From positions 3,100,501 to 3,164,500 of the forward strand of contig NZ_WUQX01000001.1 in the NCBI RefSeq assembly GCF_009830285.1: a DNA stretch of 64,000 nucleotides, in the 5' to 3' direction. Under the pieces are notes generated by a model, which saw only the letters and a program-made list of their open reading frames with translations, had not been told where the DNA came from and made no database searches. Below, piece by piece: positions 33,718 to 61,101 of the stretch. The position numbers were made by a program, and so were the translations under genes. This stretch comes from Sporofaciens musculi (GTDB lineage: Bacteria > Bacillota > Clostridia > Lachnospirales > Lachnospiraceae). How positions within the stretch are numbered: position 1 is the first letter of the stretch; every line of letters begins with the position of its first letter.

Positions 33718-34957
33718 TTACTTCTATTTCTTTATTTCTCCTTATATATAAAAATGGAATATATTGGCCTATTGTCATCATTTGCAGAAAAGAGGTACCT
33801 AATATGTAGGGCACAATTAATACTAATATCATCATACAACGTTTTTCCTTATATAAATGAGCTTTCAACATCATCTGCATATATAATAAAACAAAAAGAA
33901 TCGTACCTACAATTCCCTGGCAATACAACATCTCTACGATAGCCGTCATATATATCTGATATCCTGTACTATAATTCATCGGTATATTCTTGTAGCCCAT
34001 CCCCCATACTCTGTCTAATCCCGTTAAATCCATCACATACTTAATTGACCATATACGCCCTTTTATTGCCGTACCCCCCTGAGAAGGCAGCAGCCTATTC
34101 ATAGTCTGGATAAAAAAGTCAGAGCTAAATATTAATATCACAAAAACAACAAGTACAAATAATATTCCTCCTACTGTCTCAACCATTTTCTTTTGGGAAA
34201 CGGTATCCATATTGATTAAATAAATATATAACCATAAAAAAATAACCGTTAATACTCCAATTCCCGATGTAGTCATTATTATTCCTGCCGAAACTAATAT
34301 TGTTTTACCGTTTACCCTTTTTTCTTCCTCTAACAGCAGACACGCTAATCCTATGGAGCAATATTGCGCAAAATGAGCTGGCTCTAAAAATAGAGCAGAT
34401 GGACGGAACAAACCATTATAAACCATCAAACTTACATCCAAATAGTGCTGCGAGTCAAGCACTAGACTTCGCATCGGCAGCAGGAAGCCCCTGTCGTTAT
34501 TAAAATCAAACTTAAAAATATAATAGAGCACATATTGTAAAACTACACAAATTGACATTATAATTGCAATATCTTTTACATAGTTTATATAGTATCTCTG
34601 TATTTCTGAATCATAAAAAGTCAATGCCATAAATGTTATAAACATTAATAAGCTTACAATATTAAAAAAATTTGAGGTGTTGTCTGAAATTATTTCCTCA
34701 GGACTTTTTCTAAAATAAGTAATAATTATATACAAGAACATAATTATGGTCATTATCCAAATGATAGATTTTGCTTTATTATCCTTATATACTCCTTTAA
34801 CACAATTCATAAAAACAGAATACAGCATCAATATCCAATATGTGACAAAACACATATTCATTTCCAAAAAAGGAATTTTATACAAGCTTAAAATTGGAGA
34901 TAGAGCAAATATAAATGCAAATATTTTCTTTTTATTTACTGTAATTTTACATATCAT
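33674..34957 (-). CDS. O-antigen-type polysaccharide polymerase (Wzy-like), locus A
   Basis: A 427-residue protein with about 11-12 hydrophobic helices and a central outer loop with FRPSALFLEPAHFAQYCSIGLACLLLEE, the O-antigen ligase/polymerase pattern (R-P...EPxxFA). It would join repeat units of glycan A outside the membrane. A GGGGGG tract (34074-34079) is in frame within SQGGTAI. The base composition is very AT-rich, as usual for wzy genes. It lies between a GT4 gene and licD in the same operon. Confidence 0.83.
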   Translation of the reverse strand: MICKITVNKKKIFAFIFALSPILSLYKIPFLEMNMCFVTYWILMLYSVFMNCVKGVYKDNKAKSIIWIMTIIMFLYIIITYFRKSPEEIISDNTSNFFNIVSLLMFITFMALTFYDSEIQRYYINYVKDIAIIMSICVVLQYVLYYIFKFDFNNDRGFLLPMRSLVLDSQHYLDVSLMVYNGLFRPSALFLEPAHFAQYCSIGLACLLLEEEKRVNGKTILVSAGIIMTTSGIGVLTVIFLWLYIYLINMDTVSQKKMVETVGGILFVLVVFVILIFSSDFFIQTMNRLLPSQGGTAIKGRIWSIKYVMDLTGLDRVWGMGYKNIPMNYSTGYQIYMTAIVEMLYCQGIVGTILFVLLYMQMMLKAHLYKEKRCMMILVLIVPYILGTSFLQMMTIGQYIPFLYIRRNKEIEVNEERDEKDRKRGVA

Positions 34958-34985
34958 AACACTATACTGTCCTTACTATCGGCAA

Positions 34986-36134
34986 TCAAATATTCAACAG
35001 CCTTTCATAAATTTCAATCATCTTCTTCACATATATTTTCTGGTCAAATTCCTCCACCGCGTAACTTTGCCCCTTGTCTGCAATCTTTCTCATTTCATTT
35101 CTATGTTCAACCGCAAACGCAATCTGATCCGCCAGCTCCACAGCGTTCCCCGGTTCATACAGTAATCCTGTAACCTTATCTTTTATAATCTCCGGTGAAG
35201 CGCCGGCATTGGCCGCAATCGTCAGATTCCCTGAAATCATACTTTCTATAGTCGTCCTTCCCAAGCCCTCCGCACGGGAACAAACCACACAGATATCGCT
35301 CTGTTTTCTAATCTCTCGCAATTTTGTATGATCTTCAAGCTCTCCAACAAACTCAACATTATTCAGGCAATGTTCTTCCACATATCTATGCAAAGAGGAT
35401 GCATAATCTTTATTTCCATTCCAATATCCGTCCCTGCCTACAATTCTCAAATAAAAATCTCCCGGTCTGTTTTCGTTTAATATTTCTATTGCTTTTATAA
35501 TATCCTTCTGCCCCTTTTGTGGATTAATGATGCCAACAATCAGCAGATTCGTACATTGATTCTCTAATATTGTTTTTTTCTCATAATAGTTTTCAGCATC
35601 TACGCTGTCAGGGACTAGTGCAAATGAAGCATCCGGTACAAAATCTTGATAGACCCTTTTTACATAATCAGAGATTACAATCACTTCTGATGCGCTCCTG
35701 ATCATATTTTTTATTCTACTAGGATGATAGAACTCCATTCCTAATCCATCCCAAATGTTTTCCCTGATATGGCAAATATAGGGAACTTGGGCTTTGTATG
35801 CCGCTTCCATTCCTATGGCAGTCGGCAGACTGTTATTATGTAGAATATCGATTCTTTTTCTTTTCAGATAAAAAGCAATACAATACTTAGAATATATATT
35901 TATTATCTTTTTTATCAACGTTTTCAAAGCTGAATCCGCCTTGACTGACGACTTGAACGGCAGAAGCTTATATTCTGCATCAACCGATTTTAAAGCGTCC
36001 TCCATACTTCCGTGACGGTTCATGAGCACAAAACATTCATGGCCATTTTTTTGTAACATCTTCAATAGCTCAAATAAGGATCTGTTTGCGCCGCCTGCCT
36101 TATTTACTGTTGACAAAACAAAACAAATCTTCAT
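34986..36134 (-). CDS. GT4 family glycosyltransferase, locus A
   Basis: A 382-residue GT-B enzyme. The N-terminal domain opens with the acceptor loop VLSTVNKAGGANRSLFELLKMLQ. The C-terminal domain has LIVGIINPQKGQKDIIKAI (near 195), VEFVGELEDH and the donor motif CSRAEGLGRTTIESMISGNLTIAANAGASPEII (E-x(7)-E). ATGA-type overlap joins it to the GT2 gene upstream. It likely adds one sugar in the glycan A repeat unit; linkage unknown. Confidence 0.88.
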   Translation of the reverse strand: MKICFVLSTVNKAGGANRSLFELLKMLQKNGHECFVLMNRHGSMEDALKSVDAEYKLLPFKSSVKADSALKTLIKKIINIYSKYCIAFYLKRKRIDILHNNSLPTAIGMEAAYKAQVPYICHIRENIWDGLGMEFYHPSRIKNMIRSASEVIVISDYVKRVYQDFVPDASFALVPDSVDAENYYEKKTILENQCTNLLIVGIINPQKGQKDIIKAIEILNENRPGDFYLRIVGRDGYWNGNKDYASSLHRYVEEHCLNNVEFVGELEDHTKLREIRKQSDICVVCSRAEGLGRTTIESMISGNLTIAANAGASPEIIKDKVTGLLYEPGNAVELADQIAFAVEHRNEMRKIADKGQSYAVEEFDQKIYVKKMIEIYERLLNI

Positions 36135-37132
36135 TTATTATTTTTTCCGGACAATGCAGGATATATTTTCAATAACCAATAAGCCATATAATTCGTTTTT
36201 CTCATCATACTAACAAAAATTCCCATCTTCTGGCATCTGGCAGCCCCTTTATAAATGTCTGGAAACTCCCTTCTTATTTTTTGATCATATCTTTTAATGG
36301 TTCTTCGATTATGGTCTGACAATGGCAGTAACAGATATGTCTGGATTGCTATTACATGGAATCTCGCCACACGTCTTAATATATACCTATAATTTTCGCT
36401 GTTTCTCTGTGTTTCACAAAACTCATAGGTTTTTCTGCAGATACGAAGCATCTCATCTTTGTGCCTGATTCTTGATTCAACGCTCATGCTTTGCCCATCT
36501 CTGCCGACCCTGTAACAATACACTGGCAAATCTATAAACAATGCTTTCTTTGCTGCTGAGAACGGAACAATCGCGTATAATTGATCTGTATAGAGACTAT
36601 GGGATGGAAGAATAAGATTGGTTCTTCTAAGCAATTCTGTTTTAAACGTAATACACCACATTCCAACTGGCTTTCGAGGTACAAAATCTTTCATCAGACA
36701 CTCATATCCATTATGCATATGATGACGCTTTATCAGCCTCAAATTCTTTTCATCACATCCATAAGCATAATGAGTAAATACAACATCTGCATCAGATGTT
36801 CTCAGCGCCTTAATCAAATATTTCAAATGATTGGCGTCAAACCAGTCGTCACCGTCAAGAAGCTTAAAGTATTTTCCCGTTGCATGGGCCATACTATAAT
36901 TGACGGTTGTACCATAACCACCGTTTTCTTTGTGAACCACATGAAAAGTTTCCGGATATTGTTCTTCATACTTTTTTGCTATTTCAGCCGTTTGATCGGT
37001 TCCGCCGTCATCCACAATAAATACTTCCAGCAAATCCATAATCTCAGGAATAATCATCGATTCAATATTTTGCTGGATATATTTTTCAACATTGTATGCA
37101 GCTACCGAAACTGTTAAAATTTTATTGCTCAT
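36131..37132 (-). CDS. GT2 family glycosyltransferase, locus A
   Basis: A 333-residue inverting GT-A enzyme: LTVSVAAYNVEKYIQQNIES (residues 5-24), VFIVDDGGTDQTAEIAKKY and KLLDGDDWFD with the DxD-type metal site near 98. ATG 37132 is preferred to the GTG at 37144; it overlaps the upstream GT4 gene by 11 bp (translational coupling). The C-terminus lacks strong membrane helices. A glycan A sugar transferase; specificity unknown. Confidence 0.88.
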   Translation of the reverse strand: MSNKILTVSVAAYNVEKYIQQNIESMIIPEIMDLLEVFIVDDGGTDQTAEIAKKYEEQYPETFHVVHKENGGYGTTVNYSMAHATGKYFKLLDGDDWFDANHLKYLIKALRTSDADVVFTHYAYGCDEKNLRLIKRHHMHNGYECLMKDFVPRKPVGMWCITFKTELLRRTNLILPSHSLYTDQLYAIVPFSAAKKALFIDLPVYCYRVGRDGQSMSVESRIRHKDEMLRICRKTYEFCETQRNSENYRYILRRVARFHVIAIQTYLLLPLSDHNRRTIKRYDQKIRREFPDIYKGAARCQKMGIFVSMMRKTNYMAYWLLKIYPALSGKNNK

Positions 37133-38291
37133 CAGTATCACCACCCAAATAATTTAGGAAAAGTTCTCTGTACTTTTCTTTGACAATTCTAATATCCATG
37201 ACTTCTTCGGCCGTTTTCCTGGCATTTTCTCTATACTTTCTAACCAATTCTTTATCCTGATAAAGCCTGAATATTTTTTCCGCTAAATCTGAAGCGTCAT
37301 TATTTTCAACATATACTCCTACGTCATATGTACAAATCAGCCTCTTCAAATCTCCATCATCCCCCCCAATCCCTACTAACGCCTCGCCGCATGCCATAAA
37401 ACTAAATGCCTTACTTGGGTATGCAATCATTGAATTTTCCGCATTTTGAGCTACGATTGCCACATCGCCGCATGCCATAGAAAAGACATATTTTTCCACT
37501 GACTGAAAAGGAAACAAGCGTACATTTTTATTCGGATATCTTGCAACATACTTTTCCACAAGCTGCCTTTTTACTCCCTGCCCGACGAAAACAAATAAAA
37601 TATCCTCTATCTTTTCCAATTTTCTGGCGGCCTTCAATACAATCTCTATATTATGTCCAATCCCCATTGTACCTGAGTACAAAACAACAAATTTCTCGGT
37701 CAATCCATTTTCTATACAAAATATATTTTCTTCTTTTTTCAATGGTTTAAGCAACCGGGTATCAACCCCAAACGGCATTGCTTTTATTCTGATCGGACAT
37801 TGTACGCTTTGCTCAATCAACTCCGCTTCTGCCGGTCCGTTTGCAAGCATTAAATCGTACTTTTTGTAATTTAGATGATTCCAACGCCTCCATAATTTAC
37901 ATACAATATGTGAAAGATAATGGTCGATGCTGCATTCAATCGCCTGTGGATAGATATCCCAATGTGTAAAGATAACGGGCGCTTGAAAATCCTTTTTTAA
38001 TCTTAATCCAATCCATATATTAATCGGCGGATTTGACGATACAAAAATCAAATCGTATTTTCTGCCTTTTTTATTCTTTCTTCTCCATCTCTGCATGAAA
38101 AGAAAGAAATTCATCCAACTGATAAACCGAGTCTTTAGGGATTCTGCATGATAATCCGGAGCTTTCCATATATCATTTTTTACTTTATTAGCCGTTATGA
38201 TATCAATCTGCGCAATTCCTTCCAAAGCCTGTTCCATGACATCATAAAATTGCTTCTGGATTTCCTGGGATACAATAAGTATTTTTTTCAT
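37122..38291 (-). CDS. GT4-like glycosyltransferase with in-frame G7 tract (on state)
   Basis: A 389-residue GT-B enzyme: KILIVSQEIQ start, FVVLYSGTMGIGHNIEIVLKAARKL (near 205), FVGQGVKRQLVEKY and the donor region AYPSKAFSFMACGEALVGIGGDDGDLKRLI (near 310). The codons for IGGD contain seven G (plus strand 37361-37367), so one slip would truncate the last 70 or so residues. It follows the epimerase gene by 1 bp and overlaps the GT2 gene. The architecture resembles WbuB-like 6-deoxysugar transferases; donor unknown. Confidence 0.87.
   Translation of the reverse strand: MKKILIVSQEIQKQFYDVMEQALEGIAQIDIITANKVKNDIWKAPDYHAESLKTRFISWMNFFLFMQRWRRKNKKGRKYDLIFVSSNPPINIWIGLRLKKDFQAPVIFTHWDIYPQAIECSIDHYLSHIVCKLWRRWNHLNYKKYDLMLANGPAEAELIEQSVQCPIRIKAMPFGVDTRLLKPLKKEENIFCIENGLTEKFVVLYSGTMGIGHNIEIVLKAARKLEKIEDILFVFVGQGVKRQLVEKYVARYPNKNVRLFPFQSVEKYVFSMACGDVAIVAQNAENSMIAYPSKAFSFMACGEALVGIGGDDGDLKRLICTYDVGVYVENNDASDLAEKIFRLYQDKELVRKYRENARKTAEEVMDIRIVKEKYRELFLNYLGGDTDEQ
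37361..37367 (-). repeat. poly-G7 tract in coding strand, gene on
   Basis: ATT GGG GGG GAT within the donor-binding loop of an intact GT4 gene. It is the same kind of tract as the G8 runs that break neighbouring genes, so this gene is a candidate contingency gene captured in the on state. Confidence 0.7.
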
Positions 38292-38292
38292 C

Positions 38293-39348
38293 TTAATCCA
38301 AACTCTCTTTCAAAATCTTTACTGTATGGGATAATCCTGTCTCTGCACAAAAGGCGCTTTTCCATCCTAACCTAAGCAATTTTGTGCTGTCTAATGATGA
38401 AGCTTCCATTGGATTAAATCCCTTCTTTTCTCTCATACCAGCCTCTCCCTGTACTAACTTAACGCCGCCGGCCTCAGACAGAAGCTCTGCCATCTGTCTG
38501 ATACTTATGATGGAGTTCGGATCAGATATATTGTAAGCGCAAAGGTTCTCTCCTCTTAACAGTACTTTTAATATAGCCGAAGCACAATCCAGGCAGTAGC
38601 AGTAACTCCGAAGCTGAGAACCCTTACTTTTCAAAACAATATCTTTTCCCTGTGCCGCTGCAAAAGCAAATGAAGACGATACCCTGTTATCCTCCTGTGA
38701 TGCGGTAGGTCCGTAAATGTGGCCGGGACGTACAATCACAGCCTCCATTCCATATTCAACGGCATAACTTACACATAAGGTTTCCGTTGCTTTTTTACTG
38801 AGTGAATAGGAATTCCTGGGATTCAAAATATCAATATATCCATAATCATTCTCCTGATAAGGGAATTTTTCATTCTTTGTTCCGTAAACTTCACTGCTGG
38901 AGAGATACAATACTCTCTTTGTTCCCCACTCTTTCGTTTGATTAAGCAGACAATACATCCCAGAAAAATTACTTAACATTGTTTCAACAGGTTCCTTCAT
39001 AATCATATTCGGACAGGCATTCCCTGCCCCATGGATGATATAATCAACAGGCGATTTAAGCTTTATATCCTTTAATGCATCATAGTGGATATGTTCAAAA
39101 TAATCTTTATCGCAGTATGGTTTAAAACGTCGGTCCAGCTTTTCAATATTTCTCCCTGCAGCCAAAATTTTAATTGGCTCATCATGTGTTTCGTTATAAC
39201 GTATCAATATATCCACAACCGCTGAACAGATCAGCCCGTAAGCCCCTGTAATCATTACCGCTGTTCCGGAAAGCTCGTTTAACTCCTCCAGATACATGAA
39301 TTCTCTGTCTATGTCCTGTATCCACTGTTCACTGTTATAAATACTCAT
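38293..39348 (-). CDS. NAD-dependent epimerase/dehydratase (extended SDR)
   Basis: A 351-residue extended SDR with VMITGAYGLICSAVVDILI (residues 30-48; TGxxGxxG with the third Gly replaced by Cys-Ser in GLICSA), the catalytic YSLSKKATE (YxxxK near 180) and PGHIYGPT. Sequence features resemble UDP-glucuronate decarboxylase/dTDP-glucose dehydratase-type enzymes. It lies 3 bp from an IspD/TarI-like CTP transferase and one gene from licD. A similar TarI-SDR pairing makes CDP-ribitol in other bacteria, so it may supply or modify a CDP-linked polyol or sugar. The substrate is open. Confidence 0.8.
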   Translation of the reverse strand: MSIYNSEQWIQDIDREFMYLEELNELSGTAVMITGAYGLICSAVVDILIRYNETHDEPIKILAAGRNIEKLDRRFKPYCDKDYFEHIHYDALKDIKLKSPVDYIIHGAGNACPNMIMKEPVETMLSNFSGMYCLLNQTKEWGTKRVLYLSSSEVYGTKNEKFPYQENDYGYIDILNPRNSYSLSKKATETLCVSYAVEYGMEAVIVRPGHIYGPTASQEDNRVSSSFAFAAAQGKDIVLKSKGSQLRSYCYCLDCASAILKVLLRGENLCAYNISDPNSIISIRQMAELLSEAGGVKLVQGEAGMREKKGFNPMEASSLDSTKLLRLGWKSAFCAETGLSHTVKILKESLD

Positions 39349-39351
39349 GTC

Positions 39352-40068
39352 TTAATCCTTTAACCACTCTGAACGTTTCGCCGCTAACAATGCTTTAAAA
39401 ATGTCAATATCCTCGACTGTCGTAAGCTTAATATTCTTCTCTGAACCGGCAGAAAAGTATACCTGTTGTCCCATCTCAATCATTAGCGTACAGGATGCCA
39501 CCGAATTGGTAATCCCTGCTTTCAAAGCCTTTCTGTGAAGTTCGCATATCTGACCGAGATAAAATCCCTGGGGAGTCTGTGTTCTCTTAAGCCTGTCCCG
39601 CGGATAACTTTTATCCGCCATAACCCCATTTTCCGTCTGCATCATCGCTTCCGCACATGGAATCACCGTAATTGCATTACCGTACTGTATGGTTTTACTA
39701 ATACAATCGGAAATAATCTCCGCCGACACCAACGGTCTGATTGCGTCATGAATCAATACAATATCATTCTCTTTAAACTGCTTCTCCAATTCATATACTC
39801 CGTTGCGGATAGATGCCTGTCCATTCTCACCGCCTGAAAACACATACTTTAATTTCGTTATATTAAACTGTTTTGCATAGGCCCAAAGCACTTGTTCCCA
39901 TCCATCTATACAAACCACCGCAATCGAACCAATCTCCGGATGCTTTTCAAATGCTTCCAGCGTATATATGATAACCGGCTTTTCATTTACCGTAAGAAAC
40001 TGCTTCGGTATATCCTGATGCATCCGATTGCCTGAACCTCCTGCTATTAAGAGTGCAATATTCGCCAT
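39352..40068 (-). CDS. IspD/TarI-family cytidylyltransferase
   Basis: A 238-residue CTP transferase: IALLIAGGSGNRMHQDIPKQFLTVNEKPVIIYTLEAF (Gly-rich CTP loop with the Arg and Lys), VLIHDAIRPLVSAEII (near 105), RDRLKRTQTPQGF (near 153) and LTTVEDIDIFKA. Members make CDP-methylerythritol (IspD) or CDP-ribitol (TarI). Its place beside an SDR and a LicD transferase in a glycan locus favours a TarI-like role, activating ribitol-5-phosphate or another polyol phosphate for transfer to the glycan. The stop codon abuts the licD gene upstream. Confidence 0.85.
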   Translation of the reverse strand: MANIALLIAGGSGNRMHQDIPKQFLTVNEKPVIIYTLEAFEKHPEIGSIAVVCIDGWEQVLWAYAKQFNITKLKYVFSGGENGQASIRNGVYELEKQFKENDIVLIHDAIRPLVSAEIISDCISKTIQYGNAITVIPCAEAMMQTENGVMADKSYPRDRLKRTQTPQGFYLGQICELHRKALKAGITNSVASCTLMIEMGQQVYFSAGSEKNIKLTTVEDIDIFKALLAAKRSEWLKD

Positions 40069-40863
40069 TTACTGATTCACTCCATTCTTAATCAATTCAT
40101 ACCGAACCTCACTGTTTCTCTCATGTACAGGAGGCAAAGTCATATAATTTCCGTACCTTTTGGTCAAATATTTATCCGGCTCTGTCGGTCCATCAAAATA
40201 CAGCCCTTCAAACAACATTTTCTTTGGCTTGGAAAACCAATTCTTATCATATGTAATCGCAGAGCATAAGGATACGTCCTCCCCAAAGTAATCGCAAATC
40301 GAATCACTCTTTCGTTTATACGACAATCCTTCTTCTAATCTTCGGATATCTCTTTCACGATTTTTCTTTCTGAAAAACAACAGCACCATTCCTGCGGCTG
40401 CTTTGCTTATGATTCCGTGATTCTGCGGTACTCCGCTCACAAGAATTTTATATAAATGCGAATGCCAAACCTTAAAGACAAGACCTGCTTTTGTCCTGGG
40501 GCAATCATAATAAGGGTATACATCTATATACGGATTCGTTTTCTCTAAAATTTTATTGCCCTTCTTTACATATAATTCTGCACTTCTATCTACAACATGC
40601 ATACCAATACTTCCAAAAGAGCAATCGGTTTCTCTGCTTCTGACAAAATATCGTTTTCCAAATTCTGTCTGATACCTGGAAAGTTTTTTTGCATCTTCTA
40701 TAGGCATTAACACATCTATATCATGATCCCACGGAATAAATCCCTGATGTCTGACCGAGCCAAGACAGGAACCATAGGCCAGATAATAACGCAACTGATG
40801 TCTGTGACATACTTCGTCTAATTTTATCAATATCTCTAATTGCAGTTTTTGAACTTCTGTCAT
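40069..40863 (-). CDS. LicD family phosphotransferase, locus A (2)
   Basis: A 264-residue LicD protein with LRYYLAYGSCLGSVRHQGFIPWDHDIDVLMP (about residues 23-53), keeping the G-S-x-L-G and D-x-D metal site, and the C-terminal KRYGNYMTLPP. It is immediately upstream of, and coupled to, the TarI-like gene, so its donor is probably the CDP-alcohol that enzyme makes (CDP-ribitol-like) rather than CDP-choline. It differs strongly from the other two LicD copies in the window. Confidence 0.87.
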   Translation of the reverse strand: MTEVQKLQLEILIKLDEVCHRHQLRYYLAYGSCLGSVRHQGFIPWDHDIDVLMPIEDAKKLSRYQTEFGKRYFVRSRETDCSFGSIGMHVVDRSAELYVKKGNKILEKTNPYIDVYPYYDCPRTKAGLVFKVWHSHLYKILVSGVPQNHGIISKAAAGMVLLFFRKKNRERDIRRLEEGLSYKRKSDSICDYFGEDVSLCSAITYDKNWFSKPKKMLFEGLYFDGPTEPDKYLTKRYGNYMTLPPVHERNSEVRYELIKNGVNQ

Positions 40864-40872
40864 TGATTTCTC

Positions 40873-42489
40873 CTATTTCCTATACAGGCCGTCTCTGTGA
40901 GCAACCCAAATCGTCTTCATTCCAAGCTGTCTCGCCGCCTGAAAATCTTTTGCAGGGTTATCTCCTACATAGACGAGCTGCTCATAGGGTATACGCCATC
41001 GATTCTGCATAATCCGAAAGGATATATCATTCGGTTTTCTAAACTGTAATCCTCCAAGCTCATCTGTAACAATGATATCATCCATCAAATCCTCAAGCCC
41101 TAATGCGGCAATCTTATTCCTCTGTCCTTCGGGGCGTCCATCTGTAATCATGCCTGTATTAATCCCGAAGTTTTTTAATTCCGTGATAAGCTCACACACT
41201 CCCTGATAAAGCTCTAGCTTTGGCTTATGGGCTCTATATATTTCCAAACATTGCGCCTTCAAATCTTCTCTGCCAATCTGCTTCAGGAATTCATCAATCG
41301 CATATAACCCCTTCTCAAAATAAGACCAGAGCTTTTTCTGTGCATCCTTTATTTCCAAAAAATCTGCCACAGCCTGAAAGCCGCTCCTCACATATTGTTT
41401 TTCAGGGTATAACGTATCGTCAAGGTCGAAGATCACTCCCTTAATTTTCCACCTGTCTATCCCTAAAGAGCTTACCGTCATACTTAAACCTGCACTCCCT
41501 TGCCGAATGAGCTTTGTCCCCCAAGCGCTTCCTTCATCGATACATACGCTCTGCTCGTAACGGCTATAGATTGCCCCGTCGGCTAACTCCATATCACAGC
41601 AAGCCTTTTCATGACTCAAAAGTTTTAATATTGTCTCTGCACTTCTTGCGCCTGCTTTCATACTCAAAGGAACACCGCCGCCAAATCTCGGATTAATCTC
41701 AATGTAATAGTTGCGGTCTGATTTCTCGTCACGAATCATCTGAACGGTCAGTGGTCCACAGGGCTTAAACGCCTCAGTCAATACTTTTGCTTCTCTGATG
41801 ATTGTCCTGTCCATACAAATCTGCGTTTTCAGAACCTCCCCTGCCCTTACGGCTAATCGTCTTCTCGGAACAACACTGAGCATTCGTCCCTCAAAATCAC
41901 AGAATATGTCTATTGTATATTCCTCTCCAGATACAAACGGCTGCACAATATAATTTTCAATCTGCTGCGCATAAACTGAAAGCTCTGTCACGTTTTCAAC
42001 CTTAAAGGCATTGATACTGCTGCTTCCGTCCCTGGGCTTTATAAAAGCCGGAAAACCGCCCTTATATGCTTTCCAATCATCTACTGGCGCTGGTGAGTGC
42101 AGCCCACAGGCGTCAAAAAGTTTTGATGTTTTTCTTTTATCCCGACAGATACGAATCTTCTCTAAAGGACTCACCATAATTTTTGTCCCTGACGCTTCGA
42201 TTTTCTCTTTATTTTCTGCAAGCACGAGAAGATCTGTATCAATCGTGGGAATCACTAAGTCTATTCTGTCTTTCCGACATATTTCTATAAGCTCTAAAAT
42301 ATAATGATCTTCCCGCATTCCGCAAATAATCCTTGAAAAATCGCAGTATGCCAGAGCCGGCGCCGTATTGCTGACATCTGCCCCATAAATTTTTAAATCT
42401 TTACCCAGACATAACGCTGCCTGACGGAAGGCCTGGAGAAGTTCAACACGCCGGCCTACTCCGGTAAATAAAATATGTAATTCTTTCAT
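40873..42489 (-). CDS. ATP-grasp ligase fused to HAD-family hydrolase
   Basis: A 538-residue fusion. Residues 1-320 are a carbamoyl-phosphate-synthase-like ATP-grasp ligase (FTGVGRRVELLQAF; PAFIKPRDGSSSINAF; YIEINPRFGGGVPLSMKAG with the metal-binding E-x-N). Residues about 350-538 are a HAD hydrolase (GVIFDLDDTLYPEK nucleophile motif; MITDGR; FRKPNDISF; VYVGDNPAKDFQAARQLG). ATP-grasp enzymes couple a carboxylate to an amine, so an amino acid or similar group may be joined to a sugar, with the HAD removing a phosphate. The product is unknown. It is near the start of locus A, beside the initiating sugar transferase. Confidence 0.83.
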   Translation of the reverse strand: MKELHILFTGVGRRVELLQAFRQAALCLGKDLKIYGADVSNTAPALAYCDFSRIICGMREDHYILELIEICRKDRIDLVIPTIDTDLLVLAENKEKIEASGTKIMVSPLEKIRICRDKRKTSKLFDACGLHSPAPVDDWKAYKGGFPAFIKPRDGSSSINAFKVENVTELSVYAQQIENYIVQPFVSGEEYTIDIFCDFEGRMLSVVPRRRLAVRAGEVLKTQICMDRTIIREAKVLTEAFKPCGPLTVQMIRDEKSDRNYYIEINPRFGGGVPLSMKAGARSAETILKLLSHEKACCDMELADGAIYSRYEQSVCIDEGSAWGTKLIRQGSAGLSMTVSSLGIDRWKIKGVIFDLDDTLYPEKQYVRSGFQAVADFLEIKDAQKKLWSYFEKGLYAIDEFLKQIGREDLKAQCLEIYRAHKPKLELYQGVCELITELKNFGINTGMITDGRPEGQRNKIAALGLEDLMDDIIVTDELGGLQFRKPNDISFRIMQNRWRIPYEQLVYVGDNPAKDFQAARQLGMKTIWVAHRDGLYRK

Positions 42490-42492
42490 CTT

Positions 42493-43176
42493 TTACTCCT
42501 TTGCAGTTTCCTTTGAACTTCCTTGAAATATTTCCATTGTCGCTGATGCCTGGGGACTGATTCCTTCTTTTTTCAAAACGATTCCTACAGTCTCAAAAAT
42601 AATCCTCCAATCCCTCAAAAACGTAATTCTATCCACATAATCTACATCCCATTCAAATTTTTCTTCCCAGGAAATGGCGTTTCTGCCATGGACTTGTGCA
42701 AGTCCTGTAAACCCTGGCAGAACTTCATGCCTACGCGCCTGACGCCGTGTATACCGTGAAAGATACTCTGGAAGAAGCGGTCTTGGCCCTACAACGGACA
42801 TATCTCCTCTGAGAATATTAACCAGCTCAGGTAGTTCATCCAGAGACGAGGCACGAAGCCTTCTGCCAAAAGGAGTCAGCCTAATCTCATCTGGCAAAAG
42901 CTTCCCGAATTCATCACGCTCGTCTGTCATGGTACGGAATTTATAATTATTGAATATTTTCCCGTTTTTTCCTGGTCTTTTCTGTTTAAAAATCACGGGA
43001 GAACCCAGTTTTATGCGAACCATCAAAGCGGTTGCAAGAATAACCGGCGACAATAAAGTAAGCGCGCTTGCAGATAAAATAATATCCATGGGCCGCTTTA
43101 TATATCTCTCATATAATCCGTAAGGAATATGCTTATTTTCCAGACACTTCCTATTATCTTTCCTTCGCTTCATCAA
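42493..43176 (-). CDS. initiating sugar transferase (polyisoprenyl-phosphate phosphoglycosyl transferase), locus A
   Basis: A 227-residue small monotopic phosphoglycosyl transferase: membrane segment near 24-50 (RPMDIILSASALTLLSPVILATALMV), PVIFKQKRPGKNGKIFNNYKFRTM, SLDELPELVNILRGDMSVVGPRPLLPEY (catalytic Asp-Glu and the GPRPL motif). Such PglC/WcaJ-type enzymes move sugar-1-phosphate from a UDP-sugar to undecaprenyl phosphate and start the repeat unit. With the aminotransferase just upstream, the first sugar could be a UDP-4-amino-4,6-dideoxyhexose derivative. Locus B has its own homologue. Confidence 0.9.
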   Translation of the reverse strand: MMKRRKDNRKCLENKHIPYGLYERYIKRPMDIILSASALTLLSPVILATALMVRIKLGSPVIFKQKRPGKNGKIFNNYKFRTMTDERDEFGKLLPDEIRLTPFGRRLRASSLDELPELVNILRGDMSVVGPRPLLPEYLSRYTRRQARRHEVLPGFTGLAQVHGRNAISWEEKFEWDVDYVDRITFLRDWRIIFETVGIVLKKEGISPQASATMEIFQGSSKETAKE

Positions 43177-43222
43177 TACCTCGACTTTTTCTCATGCAAA
43201 TCTCATATAAAAATTCATATGT

Positions 43223-44521
43223 TTACTCAAAACATCTATGAATAATATCAATAATCCTCTCCTGCTCTTTTGCAGTCATCTTGTTATCACTGGGTAGACA
43301 TAAACCCCGCCGGAAAATATCTGCGCTAACATCTGCTTTCTTACCTCTATCAGAGCCGCCAACGGTTATGAAACCATGATTCCGATAGATTGGCTGCATA
43401 TGCATGGGCTTCCAGATGGGCCTACCCTCCCCCTGAAAATGCTCGATTGCCTCCAGAATCTCCGCAGGTGTGGATTTGCCAGCTTCTGTCTTCCACAATA
43501 CCTCCCGTTCTCCCCGAACCTGAGTCGCCATGGCATCTTCGTCGATTAGCAATGCTGTCATCCAGTAATTAGGCTCGCTCTTTTCTTTATCAAATGGATT
43601 TATGCTTACCGGAAGATCAGAAAGCCCCTTTTTATACTGCTCATAAATTTTCTTTTTCTGCATAATATGTTCCTTAAGATAGGGTACCTGCCCCCTGACG
43701 ACTCCGGCAATCACATTGCTCATACGGTAGTTATAGCCAATTTCCTCATGCTGATACCAGGGTGCGTCTTCCCTGCTTTGCGTAGACCACTTACGGCATT
43801 GTTTTGCGTCTGCCAGATTGTCGGTCAAAAACATTCCTCCTGAACTTCCGGTGATAATTTTATTTCCATTGAAGCTGACCGCGCTGAAATCACCAAAGCT
43901 GCCAGTCTGAATTCCCTGATAAGAAGCGCCCAGGCTTTCCGCCGCATCCTCTACCATCAGCGCCCCGTGTTTTTTGCAGATTTTTGCCAACTCCATCATC
44001 TTTCCGGGAACGCCGTACAGATGGACAAATACTACTAATTTTACATCCGGATAGAGACAGAACGCTTTTTCTAATGCCTCAGGATTCATATTCCAGGTAT
44101 CGTACTCAGAGTCAATGAAAACCGGTTCGCCGCCTTCGTAGACGACAGGATTAACAGTAGCGTCAAAGGTCATATCCGAACAGAAAACACGTTTTCCTAA
44201 TAATGCGCCGCCGCATCCCATACCGAAAGGCGTATGTATTCCTGTAGAGCTTTGATACAAATGCTCTGCCGCCAGCTTCACGGCAAGGTGGAGAGACGCT
44301 GTTCCTGAACTTAATGCAACCCCGTATTTTACGCCAACCTTCTCTGCCACAATTTCTTCAATCTCATTAATATTGTCACCTACCGTACTCATCCAGTTTG
44401 TGTTGAATGCTTCCTGCATGTATTTCAATTCATCGCCATGCATGGTTGGGGATGAAAGCCATATTTTTTCCTTAAAAGGCTCTATTCCGGTAAACCTTGG
44501 ATCACTCTTAAAATCATGCAT
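43223..44521 (-). CDS. DegT/DnrJ/EryC1/StrS sugar aminotransferase (PglE-like)
   Basis: A 432-residue PLP aminotransferase of nucleotide sugars. Visible are ALSSGTASLHLAV (near 72), MVEDAAESLGASYQG (PLP-binding Asp, near 193), SFNGNKIITGSSGGM with the Schiff-base Lys (near 220) and YNYRMSNV. The long N-terminal part (FKEKIWLSSPTMHGDELKYM) matches PglE-type 4-keto-6-deoxy sugar aminotransferases. It would make a 4-amino-6-deoxy UDP-sugar. The dehydratase it needs is not in locus A, but locus B encodes a CapE-type dehydratase; sharing is possible. Confidence 0.87.
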   Translation of the reverse strand: MHDFKSDPRFTGIEPFKEKIWLSSPTMHGDELKYMQEAFNTNWMSTVGDNINEIEEIVAEKVGVKYGVALSSGTASLHLAVKLAAEHLYQSSTGIHTPFGMGCGGALLGKRVFCSDMTFDATVNPVVYEGGEPVFIDSEYDTWNMNPEALEKAFCLYPDVKLVVFVHLYGVPGKMMELAKICKKHGALMVEDAAESLGASYQGIQTGSFGDFSAVSFNGNKIITGSSGGMFLTDNLADAKQCRKWSTQSREDAPWYQHEEIGYNYRMSNVIAGVVRGQVPYLKEHIMQKKKIYEQYKKGLSDLPVSINPFDKEKSEPNYWMTALLIDEDAMATQVRGEREVLWKTEAGKSTPAEILEAIEHFQGEGRPIWKPMHMQPIYRNHGFITVGGSDRGKKADVSADIFRRGLCLPSDNKMTAKEQERIIDIIHRCFE

Positions 44522-44527
44522 CTTACG

Positions 44528-45638
44528 TTACTTTATTCCCCTTTTCTTTCCTGCCACGGTTTCATACAATAATACGGTTTTTCTTGTCATTGCTTCTACC
44601 GTGAAATTTTCTTTTGCATATTGGTATGCTTCTTCTACGTTTTCATAAACTTTGTCTATTCCGTCCTCTGCAATTCGGTTCAATATATTTTTCAGGTCTA
44701 TCGTATCGTCATGCCGAATCGGTATACAGAATCTTTGATCGTCAAATCCAGCAGTCCGTGTTCTTACTACAGGCTTTCTCAAAAGAAATGCCTCCGCAAC
44801 CGATAAACCAAATCCCTCTTTTGTACTCGGAAGTATTAACAGATCTGCAGTGCCTAGAATCTCTCTTGTCTTACTCCATCCCACAAACCGGAACTCATCT
44901 TCCAGACCATAATTCTTAATTGCAGTTTTCATTTTCTTATAATAACTTCCTTCTCTGGTTCCGCTGCATAGGAATAAAAGCTTCTCTTTCGTTTTATCTG
45001 ACAGCTCTGCTGCCGTCTTAACTACAAGCATATGGTTCTTGACTTCTTCTATTCTGGAATGTAGTGCCAATATGATCTTATCTTCCGGTATCTCCCATTT
45101 TCTTCGGAGTCTTTCTTTTTCTTCCTGCGACAGTTCGCCAAGCTCATCGCAATCTACGCCGTTATATATTGTCACAACTTTTTCCTTCTGAATTCCTAAC
45201 TTCTCTATCATAAATCTACTGACTTCGGATGAAACGCCGATAGCCATGTCTCCCGTATCAGTCATGAGCCTATGAATAAAGTCCGATGGTATATCAGCCA
45301 AATGTAAGGTATATACAACCGGTATTTTGTGAAAGAAACGATAAAATTTCATATATAAACCTGCCATTCTATGATGGCAATGAACAATATCTATTTTCTT
45401 TTTCTTTATTATTTTTCGTATCATACGAATACTTTTTATAATTGTAATTGGTGAGAGAGAAAGTCTGTTAATCTTTACAAATTCTACCCCCCCCTGCGTT
45501 ACTGCCGATATTCAAATCATTCGTAGCAGACACTACCACTACGTTGTGCCCTTGCCTAGCCAATTCTAAGGAAAGCATCCTTATATGATTCCCCACGCCA
45601 GACCTGGCAATAATTTTTGAAAATAACATGATATTCAT
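44528..45638 (-). pseudogene. GT4 glycosyltransferase, out of frame at a G8 tract (phase-variable candidate)
   Basis: ATG 45638 overlaps the NusG-like stop (ATGA). The first frame reads MNIMLFSKIIARSGVGNHIR, a normal GT4 opening, to NIGSNAGG, then stops at TAA 22 nt after the G8 tract (45487-45494). With 7 (or 10) G it continues as GVEFVKINRLSLSPITIIKS into the long frame holding DIVHCHHRMAGLY, TIYNGVDCDEL and the donor motif PSTKEGFGLSVAEAFLLRKPVV, ending at 44528 (about 369 residues in total). Here it is off. It would be the first transferase of locus A, so its state could decide the glycan A structure. Confidence 0.82.
45487..45494 (-). repeat. poly-G8 tract in coding strand, gene off
   Basis: Current frame GCA GGG GGG GGT AGA ... 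TAA; removal of one G gives GCA GGG GGG GTA GAA TTT and opens the full GT4 gene. Confidence 0.82.
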
Positions 45639-46162
45639 TCTTTGTCCACCATCTCAATCCCCAGATAGACCACTGATTTACTCCCCATAAACTCCATCTC
45701 CACCTCTGCAATCCTCTTATGCAGATTTATTTTTCTGATCTGCCCCTTAAAATTCTTAAGGGGGCCAGACAAAATCTTAATCTGCTCTCCTTCTTCCACA
45801 GCAATCTGTGAAATCTCCACTTCTGAAATACCGCTATCCAATGTCTTGTTCTTAAGCTTCTTAATCATCTGCACATCTGTTTCTGACAGCGGTGTAAAAT
45901 ATTCCCCCCACCTTCCCAGTATCTTGGTCAATGCGGGAATCCCTTTCAATTCTTCATATAATGACTGAGGATGGTCTGTGATCATGAACACATATCCAGG
46001 AAATAATTTCTCCCTTACCTCATGCCATACTCCCTGATATTTTTTTCTGAGCCTGCGCATGGGAATAAAACAGCTTTCCACAATTTCCTTAGAAACCATC
46101 TTTTCAATCAGCAAAACCGTTCGATTTTCCTGTCCTGAAACTACTTGCATTACATACCACAT
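45635..46162 (-). CDS. NusG paralogue, LoaP/UpxY-like antiterminator (1)
   Basis: A 175-residue NusG-family protein: NGN domain 1-110 (WYVMQVVSGQENRTVLLIEK; RRLRKKYQGVWHEVREKLFPGYVFM) and a C-terminal KOW domain (EGEQIKILSGPLKNFKGQIRKINLHKRIAEVEME). Specialised NusG paralogues such as LoaP in Bacillota, UpxY in Bacteroidota and RfaH keep RNA polymerase elongating through long polysaccharide or antibiotic operons. Placement at the head of locus A matches that role. It is coupled to the phase-variable GT4 gene by an ATGA overlap. Confidence 0.87.
   Translation of the reverse strand: MWYVMQVVSGQENRTVLLIEKMVSKEIVESCFIPMRRLRKKYQGVWHEVREKLFPGYVFMITDHPQSLYEELKGIPALTKILGRWGEYFTPLSETDVQMIKKLKNKTLDSGISEVEISQIAVEEGEQIKILSGPLKNFKGQIRKINLHKRIAEVEMEFMGSKSVVYLGIEMVDKE
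45904..45909 (-). repeat. in-frame G6 run in the NusG paralogue
   Basis: Six G within GRWGEYF (TGG GGG GAA). Shorter than the other tracts; a slip here would remove the antiterminator. Listed for completeness. Confidence 0.4.
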
Positions 46163-46215: not shown

Positions 46216-46416
46216 TCAAAGCGGCTTCCTGTGCATAGCTTCGCCATCTATACCTGCATATATATCCATGCAGCCACAGCCATTTTCTATATGTCTGTCA
46301 TTCATAAGCTCAAGTGCCAATGCTTCAAGAGCTACTCCTGATATCCCGTTAAACTCACTATCATATTTTTCCGGTTTAGTACCACGACCTTCATGAATAT
46401 GCCAAAATAAACTCAA
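46216..46416 (-). CDS. small hypothetical protein between NusG paralogues
   Basis: A 66-residue open frame, MSLFWHIHEGRGTKPEKYDS..., beginning at TTG 46416, which overlaps the TGA of the upstream NusG paralogue (TTGA). AAGGAG lies exactly 7 nt before the TTG, a strong reason to accept it. It has no signal peptide or membrane helix, and holds a C-G-C motif (ENGCGCMDIY) and a helical middle (ALEALALELMND). No family recognised. Its position between antiterminators suggests a regulatory accessory role, comparable in place but not in sequence to UpxZ of Bacteroides loci. Confidence 0.55.
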   Translation of the reverse strand: MSLFWHIHEGRGTKPEKYDSEFNGISGVALEALALELMNDRHIENGCGCMDIYAGIDGEAMHRKPL

Positions 46417-46982
46417 ATAGGGTCTCCTTCCATCCGGATTCCAAACAATACATTTTCACACCGATTGAACAATGGTACCTCCGCCGTTACATACCTGTGT
46501 CTTAGCCGCTGTCTTATAATTCTTCCCACATAAGGCTTCAACGCCCCATTTGCGCTTTGAACACATCCTTTACCATCCACCTGTACGGTTGACAGTCCCA
46601 TATCATGGCCAAGGTTTTTGCCGCATACATTTTCAAGAAAATAAAGGTCTGCTTCCTCAACGGGTACAAGACCATCCAATTGATTACCCACCAACTGTGG
46701 AAACTTCCTCGACTTCTTAAGTTCCTCTGCCAATTCCATAGAGAATTCTGTATAGATAAAAATGTACCCTGGAAACATATCCTTTCTGCTAAGCAGATAA
46801 CTTCCCTGTGTGCGGAATAGCTGCTGCTTTTTCAGAATCCGGCAGCTTTGCCAGAGTGTATGGTCAATCCTTCTATCCAGAAGGCTGGCTGCCTCCTGTT
46901 CCTTGCCTTTGATTGTCCGCATGACATACCACCTTGGAGGTATACGGACTTCCATGCAATCTTCAATATATTTCTGATTCAT
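46413..46982 (-). CDS. NusG paralogue, LoaP/UpxY-like (2)
   Basis: A 189-residue NGN-domain protein: RWYVMRTIKGKEQEAASLLDRR (near 17), LLSRKDMFPGYIFIYTEF, QLVGNQLDGLVPVEEADLYFLENVCG. The C-terminal part is a diverged KOW-like domain (GALKPYVGRIIRQRLRHRYVTAEVPLF). ATG 46982 overlaps the stop of the third paralogue (ATGA), preceded by GGAGAGG. It differs from the other two at most positions, so these are old paralogues rather than a recent duplication. Confidence 0.8.
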   Translation of the reverse strand: MNQKYIEDCMEVRIPPRWYVMRTIKGKEQEAASLLDRRIDHTLWQSCRILKKQQLFRTQGSYLLSRKDMFPGYIFIYTEFSMELAEELKKSRKFPQLVGNQLDGLVPVEEADLYFLENVCGKNLGHDMGLSTVQVDGKGCVQSANGALKPYVGRIIRQRLRHRYVTAEVPLFNRCENVLFGIRMEGDPI

Positions 46983-47509
46983 ACAATCCTCTCCGTTATC
47001 TCTAAGCCAGCAGAGATATAACAAAAACTTAATCCATTCTCGTGAATTTCATAATCCCCCGACTTTGTCACAAACTGCACTCTCGCCAATCTCTTGTGAC
47101 GGTCAATCCTGCTGATTCGACTTTCCATGCCTTTTAGCGGCCCTTCTATAATCTTAGTTTCACCTCTACGGATGACTCCTCTGGACATTTCCAGATGATG
47201 TTTTACGCCGCACAACCTTTTTAGGAGCTGTTCTTCCTTTCTGCTCATTCGGATGAAAAGGTTCTCCTGCGGTGTAATAGCATTGCATTTTCCCAACTCC
47301 TTTAACAAGATTTCCTCATTATTACTTTCCAGAAATACGCTGCCTGGAAACAAGAGCTGACGTTCCAGATGCCATATGCCCTCATATTTCCTCATTCTGT
47401 CATAGGTTAGAACAAAAATGTCCTGTAATGCCTCTGGGGATAAATTTTTTCTGCATATTGTCAATATTTTTTGTTCTTCCTGCGTTTTACAGGTTATTAA
47501 GTACCAGAT
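46979..47509 (-). CDS. NusG paralogue, LoaP/UpxY-like (3), start codon apparently ATC
   Basis: First gene of locus A. The NGN homology needs residues upstream of the only standard start (TTG 47464): the frame reads I-WYLITCKTQEEQKIL from ATC at 47507-47509, aligning with M-WYVMQVVSGQEN of the first paralogue, and AAAGAGGG lies 7 nt before that ATC. Downstream are YDRMRKYEGIWHLERQLLFPGSVFLES and a KOW domain (RRGETKIIEGPLKGMESRISRIDRHKRLARVQF). So the initiator is either a rare ATC, a mutated ATG, or translation begins at TTG 47464 and lacks the first strand. The frame stays open upstream through the left inverted repeat without any ATG, GTG or TTG. Confidence 0.7.
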   Translation of the reverse strand: MWYLITCKTQEEQKILTICRKNLSPEALQDIFVLTYDRMRKYEGIWHLERQLLFPGSVFLESNNEEILLKELGKCNAITPQENLFIRMSRKEEQLLKRLCGVKHHLEMSRGVIRRGETKIIEGPLKGMESRISRIDRHKRLARVQFVTKSGDYEIHENGLSFCYISAGLEITERIV

Positions 47510-47528
47510 TCTAAATCCCTCTTTCGTT

Positions 47529-47759
47529 GAGTAAACTACTCTGCGAAAATTTTTAAAGGATATCTTTGGATAATGAAATGATTATTTAAGATAAATACAG
47601 AATTTTTGATAATAGATTTGAATAAATAGATTTTTCACTTAATTTCTTTCGTGATTTTGCACCAAATTTTTACAAAAATAAATTAAGTGTTGATTTATTA
47701 ATTTTAGATGGTTATAATAATTATGCTGTTAAAGCAAAAAATCGCAGAGTAGTTTACTC
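47529..47759. promoter_or_regulatory. candidate invertible promoter segment (18-bp inverted repeats)
   Basis: GAGTAAACTACTCTGCGA (47529-47546) recurs inverted at 47742-47759, perfect over 18 bp, enclosing 195 bp of AT-rich DNA with no gene. Inside is one near-consensus promoter (47690-47718) on the plus strand, facing away from locus A. Inversion would point it at the three NusG paralogues, 180-200 bp away. Each arm is itself palindromic, as recombinase sites often are. The layout equals the invertible promoter-upxY arrangement of Bacteroides capsule loci. The right arm also acts as a terminator (47739-47767), so a copied terminator is the alternative reading. No recombinase gene is in the window. 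Confidence 0.6.
47690..47718 (+). promoter_or_regulatory. strong promoter inside the inverted-repeat segment, facing away from locus A
   Basis: TTGATT (47690-47695), exactly 17 bp, TATAAT (47713-47718). In the present orientation transcription would start near 47725 and run straight into the hairpin at 47739-47767, with no plus-strand gene to express. That is the expected picture of an invertible promoter in the off orientation. Confidence 0.7.
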
Positions 47760-47767
47760 TGCGATTT
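47739..47767. terminator. bidirectional terminator after the acetyltransferase gene
   Basis: A perfect 13-bp stem (AAATCGCAGAGTA, 47739-47751, with 47755-47767) and a 3-nt loop; on the minus strand it ends in six T. It terminates the acetyltransferase transcript and contains the right arm of the inverted repeat. Confidence 0.8.
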
Positions 47768-47793
47768 CTTTATCTTTCATATAAAATTTTTTC

Positions 47794-48558
47794 TCACAAG
47801 CTGACCTCATAAGCCGCATATTCCTTCTCAAAATGATACCCCAGCTTCTCCGCCAACGCCACCGACTGCCGATTCTGCGCGTCCCAACTGGGATACCATC
47901 CCCGCTTAAGGCACTCAAGAATCAACCTCGCCCCGCAAATACCGGCAAGTCCTCTCCTGCGGAAATCCTCCCTGGTATCAATCTGCACCTCTATCCCTCC
48001 TCTGTAACCAGAGTAAGAAGAAGCGCCGGAAACCATTTCGCCATCCTTTAGAATTACCGCACCAAGACCATACTTTTGATATTCATCAAAAGTGTCATAC
48101 TGAGACACCCAATCCCTACACCATTTTATTTCTTTACATTTCCGGAATAAACTCTCGTCCATCAGCTCTAAAGTATATTCATCCGGCAGTTCTTCCACCA
48201 CATCTTTAAGCGCCTTTTGGTCAAAGATATCCGGCTCCTTCTTAATCGCATAGCGAATTACTTTCTTCGCACGTTCTCCATAACATACCTTTATCAATTC
48301 CGCCCATTTATCATTCTGCGGAACCATAATCAAAAACTTACGCCCGCCTCTTCCTGGCCCATATAATACCAGCTCTTTATTAGGCTTTCCTGCAAAAAAA
48401 CAGAAATCTCCCAACAGAGCCATGGCAGAAGCCGGCTTTTCCGGTGCGTCTGCATAGATTGTCCCCATTATGCCCTGCAGGCAGGACCAGATCATAGTTT
48501 CCTGCCATTCGCCAAACAATGGAGCTGATTTTTCGGTCTGTAATAATCTGTAAATCAT
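47794..48558 (-). CDS. GNAT family N-acetyltransferase
   Basis: A 254-residue protein with the C-terminal GNAT fold. The acetyl-CoA loop is DTREDFRRRGLAGICGARLILECLKRG (near 197), followed by PSWDAQNRQSVALAEKLGYHFEKEY (near 225), a common GNAT ending. The N-terminal 110 residues (FCFFAGKPNKELVLYGPG) match the GNAT_acetyltran/zwittermicin-type group. It has its own promoter (48646-48674) and terminator, separating it from both glycan loci, so it need not act on glycans. Substrate unknown. Confidence 0.83.
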   Translation of the reverse strand: MIYRLLQTEKSAPLFGEWQETMIWSCLQGIMGTIYADAPEKPASAMALLGDFCFFAGKPNKELVLYGPGRGGRKFLIMVPQNDKWAELIKVCYGERAKKVIRYAIKKEPDIFDQKALKDVVEELPDEYTLELMDESLFRKCKEIKWCRDWVSQYDTFDEYQKYGLGAVILKDGEMVSGASSYSGYRGGIEVQIDTREDFRRRGLAGICGARLILECLKRGWYPSWDAQNRQSVALAEKLGYHFEKEYAAYEVSL

Positions 48559-49921: not shown

Positions 49922-49930
49922 TTTCTCCTC

Positions 49931-52221: not shown

Positions 52222-52239
52222 AATACTATTCCTCTCATG

Positions 52240-53296: not shown

Positions 53297-53313
53297 TACT
53301 TATTCCTCCCTAT

Positions 53314-53739
53314 TCATTCTACTGTCCATCCTCGGACTGCTTTCAACGTCTCTGTAATTTTTGTTGAGGATACGCCTTTTGTATATGGAAAATAAATAAT
53401 CTTAATCCCATGGTCAGTGAATTCTTCTTCATACTTCTTCCACTTTTCTGTACCATACCAGTCGTCCCCCACAAAGAGCATAGAAGCCCCCAGTTCCCTG
53501 CATACTTTTAGCTTATCCATATCATACTGAGGTACTGCTGCATCCACATATTTACAGCTTCTTACAATTTCAATCCGATCCTCAAAGGGAATCATCGGAC
53601 GTTTTCCCTTGTATGTGACAAGCTCATCGACGGTAACTCCGACAACCAGTTTGTCACACATCCCTTTTGCATTTTTCAGAAGATTCAAATGACCAATATG
53701 AAAAAGATCATATACTCCGGTTGTATAACCAATTATCAT
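53314..53739 (-). CDS. TagD-like glycerol-3-phosphate (or related) cytidylyltransferase
   Basis: A 141-residue cytidylyltransferase: GYTTGVYDLFHIGHLNLLKNAK (HxGH motif, near 16) and GVSSTKITETL (the RTxGISTT-type C-terminal motif, here SSTKI). TagD makes CDP-glycerol; relatives make CDP-ethanolamine or CDP-choline. The gene overlaps the licD gene upstream by 4 bp, a strong sign that its CDP product is the donor for that LicD in modifying glycan B. Glycerol is the likeliest alcohol by family resemblance. Confidence 0.85.
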   Translation of the reverse strand: MIIGYTTGVYDLFHIGHLNLLKNAKGMCDKLVVGVTVDELVTYKGKRPMIPFEDRIEIVRSCKYVDAAVPQYDMDKLKVCRELGASMLFVGDDWYGTEKWKKYEEEFTDHGIKIIYFPYTKGVSSTKITETLKAVRGWTVE

Positions 53740-54569: not shown

Positions 54570-54589
54570 TTTTCTAATCCTCCAAACGA

Positions 54590-61090: not shown

Positions 61091-61101
61091 TTTTCCTCCT
61101 G

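Follow-up and report, generated by a model that had tools for sequence, protein, structure and literature searches.

The element at positions 47523-47765 of the window (the whole 64 kb stretch of Sporofaciens musculi DNA that was analysed, G000:C2:3100501-3164500 in a genome of 5.76 Mb) is very probably an invertible promoter, or inverton, lying in the OFF orientation, and we put the probability of this reading at about 0.92. It draws on the sites and their cores, the repetition of the element, its inversion between relatives or paralogues, and the association of a recombinase subfamily with a site type, all of which are present in the sequences compared; flipping within the strain, the action of an enzyme, promoter activity, the function of LoaP and a change of capsule are inferred. 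A promoter of this kind, caught OFF before NusG-type genes and a glycan operon, had been proposed from the letters of the window alone (the sequence-only reading), and the proposal is now supported by complementary cores, inverted homologues and the recombinase subfamily. The features concerned are collected in the table.

Table. Features of the putative invertible element and its surroundings (window positions)
Feature	Position	Strand	Remarks
hp1, putative distal recombination site and terminator-like hairpin	47741..47765		ATCGCAGAG-TAGTTTA-CTCTGCGAT on + strand
hp2, putative LoaP-proximal recombination site	47523..47547		TTCGTTGAG-TAAACTA-CTCTGCGAA on + strand
hp1 core, 7 nt	47750..47756		
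hp2 core, 7 nt	47532..47538		exact reverse complement of hp1 core
Putative invertible AT-rich segment, 193 bp	47548..47740		homologous segments in the ten further intact S. musculi elements
Predicted promoter TTGATT-17-TATAAT	47690..47718	+	directed away from LoaP (OFF)
First LoaP-like antiterminator gene	46979..47509	-	LoaP NF033641 109.1 bits, cut-off 125
Second LoaP-like/NusG-type gene	46413..47024	-	LoaP 77.3 bits, under cut-off; Pfam NusG
Third gene, LoaP above curated cut-off	45635..46162	-	163.3 bits, cut-off 125
Glycan locus A, part	33674..45424	-	8 genes scanned, 7 with Pfam match
GNAT acetyltransferase gene	47794..48558	-	3' end facing hp1

The inverted repeat from which the analysis set out is indeed exact over 18 bp (arms 47529-47546 and 47742-47759, with 195 bp between them) and lengthens to 23 nt at 91%; no second inverted repeat of at least 18 nt whose arms lie within 500 bp of each other was detected in the 64 kb (seed 14). 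The repeat as first delimited exists, but the true units are the two 25-bp palindromic sites hp1 and hp2, each laid out as a 9-nt arm, a 7-nt core and an inverted 9-nt arm with the consensus TTCGCAGAG-N7-CTCTGCGAA; hp1 separates the element from the GNAT acetyltransferase gene. The promoter does run away from locus A, as had been said, and into a terminator-like hairpin (47739-47767), the sole one in 47400-47900 (mean of shuffles, 0.2). Promoter-like matches near the element were not above chance (four seen, 2.5 expected), and two of the four, at 9/12 each, face locus A. Because of these two weak matches, the statement that locus A has no other promoter holds for strong promoters only. A search of the element against Rfam gave a single match far under the threshold (27.4 against 59 bits).

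The element is far from unique. A 401-bp query matched the S. musculi genome 23 times, spread over 14 loci, several of the matches being partial, and the site pattern, allowing up to three mismatches, was found at 28 places as against none for a reversed control; this repetition excludes a chance origin. Twenty-two of the 28 places make up 11 intact pairs, 209-239 bp apart, before LoaP-like genes, and the remaining six comprise two that enclose a tyrosine recombinase gene, three solitary sites and one (C2:4937166) that is apparently unrelated. Each intact copy precedes a LoaP-like gene and glycan genes, and the repeat did not turn out to be a general terminator sequence used at many sites, which would have counted against that reading. 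Across five genomes, several of the compared ones being incomplete, 32 recognisable pairs were found (11 in S. musculi, 11 in G004, eight in G009 and one each in G164 and G024). Some sites are no more than 150 nt away from the end of a contig (three in G008, two in G006 and one in G042); these may fit mixed orientations, and other causes are possible. Among the solitary sites (L013:8032, L018:2255 and L021:4534 in S. musculi; also L058:2323 and L072:2911), L013 and L018 retain the conserved promoter-side sequence, and L058 retains the LoaP-like start with no recognisable distal site. They are possibly decayed elements.

A site for a tyrosine recombinase consists of two inverted arms around a core of 6-8 bp that matches between partners, and the enzyme requires the matching core at both. 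These criteria are met here by 9-nt arms, 7-nt cores and exact complementarity of the cores in 32/32 pairs with at most four arm mismatches in the distal site, as compared with a mean of 2.6 complementary pairs and a maximum of 10 when partners were shuffled (10,000 shuffles). Partner sites had been picked by their arms alone, which gave 37 candidates; two with seven or eight distal-arm mismatches were dropped and 35 were counted. The three without complementary cores (L058, the first at L069, and L197) each have a presumed distal site with six mismatches in its arms, which is probably not a site at all. The core varies between loci, nine being found among the 11 S. musculi elements: TAAACTA and TAACCTA each occur twice, the former also at the solitary L021. 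Exact complementarity within a locus combined with variation between loci is the signature of a crossover core. Insulation between loci is incomplete, however, because two of the cores occur twice in the one genome.

All 11 S. musculi copies are OFF, and over the 32 elements 28 are OFF, three ON and one (L226) undecided. The first 27 were oriented by alignment to seven reference segments, which gave 26 OFF and one ON (L054). Of the five others, L175 and L195 were scored OFF; L198, with 118 for the reversed and 71 for the forward alignment against a best shuffle of 92, is ON; for L226 and L229 neither direction exceeded shuffles, L229 being called ON by the direction of its promoter only (TTGAAA-17-TATAAT). 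Only two ON calls, those of L054 and L198, are based on homology of the reversed segment. With alignments of inverted pairs assigned by coordinates, L198 is inverted site to site relative to another G009 element, the OFF one at L069, the LoaP side being collinear, and comparison of L054 with L020 shows the half with the promoter turned round with respect to LoaP. The end letters of L198 are compatible with half-site exchange; this evidence is weak, since OFF elements, L057, L062, L064 and L071 among them, have mixed end letters too. As far as these comparisons go, both orientations exist, between relatives or paralogues only, and flipping within one strain remains an inference.

The sequence-only reading had been cautious chiefly because the right arm doubles as the terminator of the neighbouring gene. 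A terminator-like right arm fits the design. We compared the fold energy of the site that a transcript would meet in either direction and counted T over 11 nt beginning with the last base of the site, modelling unobserved states by joining half-sites and counting L226 as OFF. Averaged over the 32 elements, the values are -12.4 kcal/mol and 6.6 T away from LoaP (the OFF side) and -8.5 kcal/mol and 2.1 T towards LoaP (the ON side); for the site in the window they are -15.1 kcal/mol and 8 T at present, with -6.1 kcal/mol and 3 T modelled after a flip. There are exceptions: on the OFF side eight of the 32 elements have no more than four T, a loss of over 1 kcal/mol in hairpin strength on the ON side is seen in only 18/32, and L229 has the T pattern reversed, its T-run being on the side towards LoaP. 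In most elements, on this modelling, the outer site is a stop that silences the OFF orientation.

In our working model both palindromic sites are bound by a tyrosine recombinase, strand exchange takes place within the 7-nt cores, and the 193-bp segment is thereby flipped. In the OFF orientation the promoter would fire into hp1, with its strong hairpin and T-run, and locus A would be silent. After inversion the promoter would come to lie about 22 nt from hp2, and the crossover, by swapping half-sites, would leave the transcript to meet a weaker hairpin without a T-run, followed by a purine-rich sequence resembling a ribosome-binding site and then by LoaP, whose antitermination activity would enable RNA polymerase to traverse the long glycan operon. 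A flip of the cassette is thus expected, by inference, to turn a sugar coat on or off. With arms common to the eleven S. musculi loci and cores that are mostly specific to one locus, recombination would stay local.

The three genes at the head of locus A had been described as NusG paralogues, and NusG-type they are, although LoaP-like is the more exact term. The top NCBIfam match of the first gene on the LoaP side is LoaP at all 11 S. musculi loci (92.5-118.6 bits, cut-off 125), and the corresponding score at L226 in G164 (138 bits) is above that cut-off. UpxY reaches no more than 56 bits (cut-off 100) for the antiterminator genes, LoaP being the top match throughout. Locus A itself encodes glycosyltransferases, a DegT aminotransferase, a sugar transferase and an epimerase, and nine of the ten window genes scanned have Pfam matches, mostly to glycan synthesis. 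At each of the ten S. musculi loci outside the window at least one glycan-type gene was found among the one to three downstream genes scanned (20 genes in all, 3, 3, 2, 2, 2, 2, 2, 2, 1 and 1 per locus), the types including glycosyltransferase, sugar transferase, DegT aminotransferase, glycerophosphotransferase, EpsG and epimerase. One of these intact elements, L011, is OFF and lies about 10 kb past the right end of the window (G000:C2:3174562-3174840); provided that the intervening genes form one operon, transcription of the window's second glycan locus (minus strand, 48737-63935) could depend on it.

No ATG, GTG or TTG start lies close to the conserved beginning of the first LoaP-like gene in locus A. 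An ATC or ATT codon precedes the conserved Trp-Tyr codons in the LoaP-like genes of all 32 elements (47507-47509 in the window), and only the A of this codon counts as independent, because the search motif set the last two letters. In 15 of the 30 rows that were in register (L017 and L019 being left out) no in-frame ATG, GTG or TTG occurs from the site core to the ATC/ATT codon. The LoaP-like genes may start at AUC or AUU (the candidate in the window being the AUC at 47509-47507), and translation would then be held low.

The search for a recombinase that had been suggested gave tyrosine candidates, with 31 PF00589 matches in the S. musculi genome; serine recombinases were outside its scope. 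Two enzymes were considered, both tyrosine recombinases of the Phage_integrase family. One (382 aa, matched part C2:926413-926886) is encoded in a cassette bounded by two TTCGCAGAT-type sites of its own, the arms of which agree with those of the LoaP elements in the first 8 of 9 nt and have T, not G, at position 9. A recombinase of the closest named relative encountered, Schaedlerella arabinosiphila (Lachnospiraceae), is 90% identical to one of S. musculi, and between the two species the recombinase cassette is inverted exactly site to site (88%); its right flank is collinear for kilobases, and alignment on the left stops about 23 nt past the site. In the family of the cassette recombinase (at least 532 relatives confirmed), flanking inverted repeats of at least 16 nt were found at 63 of the 80 loci kept (shuffles, at most 14), and a second search gave paired palindromic sites for 83 of 122 recombinase ORFs. 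The other candidate is encoded by a stand-alone gene (G000:C2:5146331-5147302), with homologues 94% identical in G009 and 73% identical in G008. Matches in seven other genomes of the genus do not exceed 46%, and the incomplete genomes G002 and G004 have no match to it at E 1e-30; G004, which is 62% complete, carries 11 elements all the same. The LoaP element of G024 has a 59% relative of the stand-alone recombinase about 1.4 kb away.

A recombinase tree of 116 rows, built by a quick method with automatic site-type labels, splits into two halves (SH-aLRT 93), one of 42 rows (18 GAG, 19 site-free, four AA and one AT) and one of 74 rows (44 AT, 15 AA, 15 site-free and no GAG); a few of the GAG labels are based on sites with quite different outer arms, for example L225. 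The stand-alone recombinase belongs to a site-free clade of six (SH-aLRT 100) within the GAG half. Among 250 genomes of the family, 27 contain the recombinase (E 1e-60) and four contain GAG-TA sites with at most one mismatch, all four being among the 27; leaving out S. musculi, the association is 3/3 among 26/249, or about 0.001 when calculated by hand. Two of the genomes, G230 and G258, support the site type and not the LoaP elements, because the site there adjoins the recombinase gene itself. The prediction that genomes with the stand-alone clade carry GAG sites (at most one mismatch) was borne out in G008 (five sites), G024 (two) and G164 (two), with none in any of six comparison genomes, but failed in G239, which has a clade member and no such site; when three mismatches were allowed, GAG sites were not above control in any of the ten genomes. 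We think it likely that the stand-alone recombinase is the master invertase, its action being inferred from these associations.

Explanations without programmed inversion have also to be considered. The elements might be fixed promoter-terminator or leader-RNA modules, in which the two hairpins base-pair together or work as a terminator-antiterminator couple, with no recombination involved; both sites are hairpins, hp1 is terminator-like and 28/32 elements are OFF, all as such modules would have it. A terminator, however, needs no loop complementary to a hairpin 200 bp away, and such complementarity is found in 32/32 pairs; inverted segments exist, related sites flank tyrosine recombinase genes, and the lone Rfam match does not reach half the threshold. 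We regard fixed modules as very improbable, and are equally sceptical that recombination is real but merely evolutionary, that is, a rare exchange via repeated sites rather than programmed phase variation. The latter draws support from the fact that ON and OFF were compared between species or paralogues and not within one strain, yet it leaves unexplained the complementary cores, the breakpoints at the sites and the way in which the recombinase subfamily tracks the site type. Repeats this short are, moreover, poor substrates for ordinary homologous recombination.

The identity of the enzyme is less secure than the invertible promoter itself. That the promoter inverts but is served by the cassette recombinase is unlikely without being negligible: the near-identity of the arms speaks for it, as does the presence of this recombinase in both S. 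musculi and G009 (64% identity), which both have LoaP elements. The T at position 9 of its sites does not, and as the master enzyme it was downgraded by the tree, in which it falls in the half with 44 AT-type and no GAG-type rows. We retain the reading of an invertible promoter that is probably flipped by the stand-alone recombinase.

The design recalls that of Bacteroides, in which, in the parts of the sources available to us, seven capsule promoters of B. fragilis are inverted by the serine recombinase Mpi (PMC4747536) and regulators up(a-h)Y and up(a-h)Z are encoded at the start of the capsule loci (PMC3090145). Both arrangements have several polysaccharide operons, each with an invertible promoter and initial NusG-type regulator genes, and in both one trans-acting recombinase serves many loci, here by inference. 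The comparison with Bacteroides made by the sequence-only reading holds for the way the system would work and not for membership, because the antiterminator is LoaP-like instead of UpxY and the recombinase candidates are tyrosine instead of serine enzymes; the host, too, is a member of the Bacillota. Closer to hand, the accessible portions of a study of a defined human gut community link Clostridia inverton group 139 to tyrosine-type recombinase group 35, and describe for Clostridium sp. D5 a member of the group with repeats of 25-26 nt (from the printed coordinates) and about 205 nt inside, which changes orientation over passages in culture (PMC11892184). The word 'LoaP' is absent from PMC11892184; by analogy group 139 may be of the same class as the present elements. 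Capsule switching in Eggerthella lenta, as far as its description was available, likewise involves inverted repeats, capsule clusters and LoaP, but proceeds by megabase inversions between 16-bp repeats that move whole clusters relative to LoaP, without a small promoter flip (PMC13174815). LoaP genes often adjoin secondary-metabolite or polysaccharide operons, according to PMC12691694. Among the matches listed for open PMC papers we found none joining LoaP with short invertible promoters in Lachnospiraceae; most subscription papers were not covered. In the switches of Clostridioides difficile that depend on RecV, as in the present element, a recombinase of the Clostridia inverts a small segment before surface genes, judging by the limited material at hand. 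To our knowledge these are not capsule operons with LoaP.

We lean, if only slightly, towards a more general hypothesis, that the Lachnospiraceae have independently evolved a multi-locus capsule switch in which the stand-alone recombinase flips about a dozen LoaP-linked promoters, the cores serve as addresses that confine the inversions, and the outer site is at once a recombination site and an OFF terminator disarmed by half-site exchange. If so, the Bacteroides strategy of many capsules, flipping promoters and NusG-type antiterminators would be found in Gram-positive gut commensals with unrelated parts, and the core addresses would stop a shared enzyme from scrambling the chromosome. The system also offers a test bed, with 11 natural loci of nearly one arm sequence, nine cores, a candidate enzyme and an orientation that is simple to assay, in which to study capsule switching in relation to phage escape and immune recognition, and core insulation between loci.

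Variants on the theme were seen elsewhere. In S. arabinosiphila, L183 and L184 have long LoaP-like genes (68 and 64 bits, under the cut-off) adjoining TTCGCAGAT-type inverted site pairs; the pair at L184 contains a recombinase gene, and that locus is, from its arrangement, a putative variant with the enzyme inside the segment. In G049 a site pair 386 bp apart (C3:12156-12566) has the same core as the recombinase cassette of that genome (C4:284851-286248), as would be expected if a single enzyme acted on the two.

Immediately beyond the self-flanked cassette of the S. musculi recombinase lies a gene of the TnpB family (L053:9812-11227, plus strand; C2:927811-929226), and such a gene occurs in 28 of the 80 recombinase loci. 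In these 28, some on cut contigs and two of them identical rows, the recombinase and TnpB-like genes are co-directional in 19 and divergent in nine, so that both of the states expected of an inverting cassette are represented. By comparison with what we take to be the canonical RuvC motifs, the catalytic D of motif I is missing from 31/31 aligned TnpB-like proteins, and wherever motifs II and III could be aligned they are degenerate; the family is apparently nuclease-dead. The idea of a guide RNA for the LoaP elements was rejected, the region around and 3' of the end of the TnpB-like gene sharing no word of 12 nt or more with those of S. musculi and one of 11 nt. A structured RNA was recognized 3' of the TnpB-like gene (L053:11299-11507, plus strand) and in 24 more of 31 loci, with the motif CGGCAUUAGAAG...UAUGCC...GGGAGCGAAGC... 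and simple-motif cuts of 161-244 nt, one being 346 nt. It had no match in Rfam at the six loci searched. Over 16 aligned sequences, 11 of 17 predicted pairs have pair-keeping changes on both sides, and the RNA may be an omega-RNA-like partner of the TnpB-like protein.
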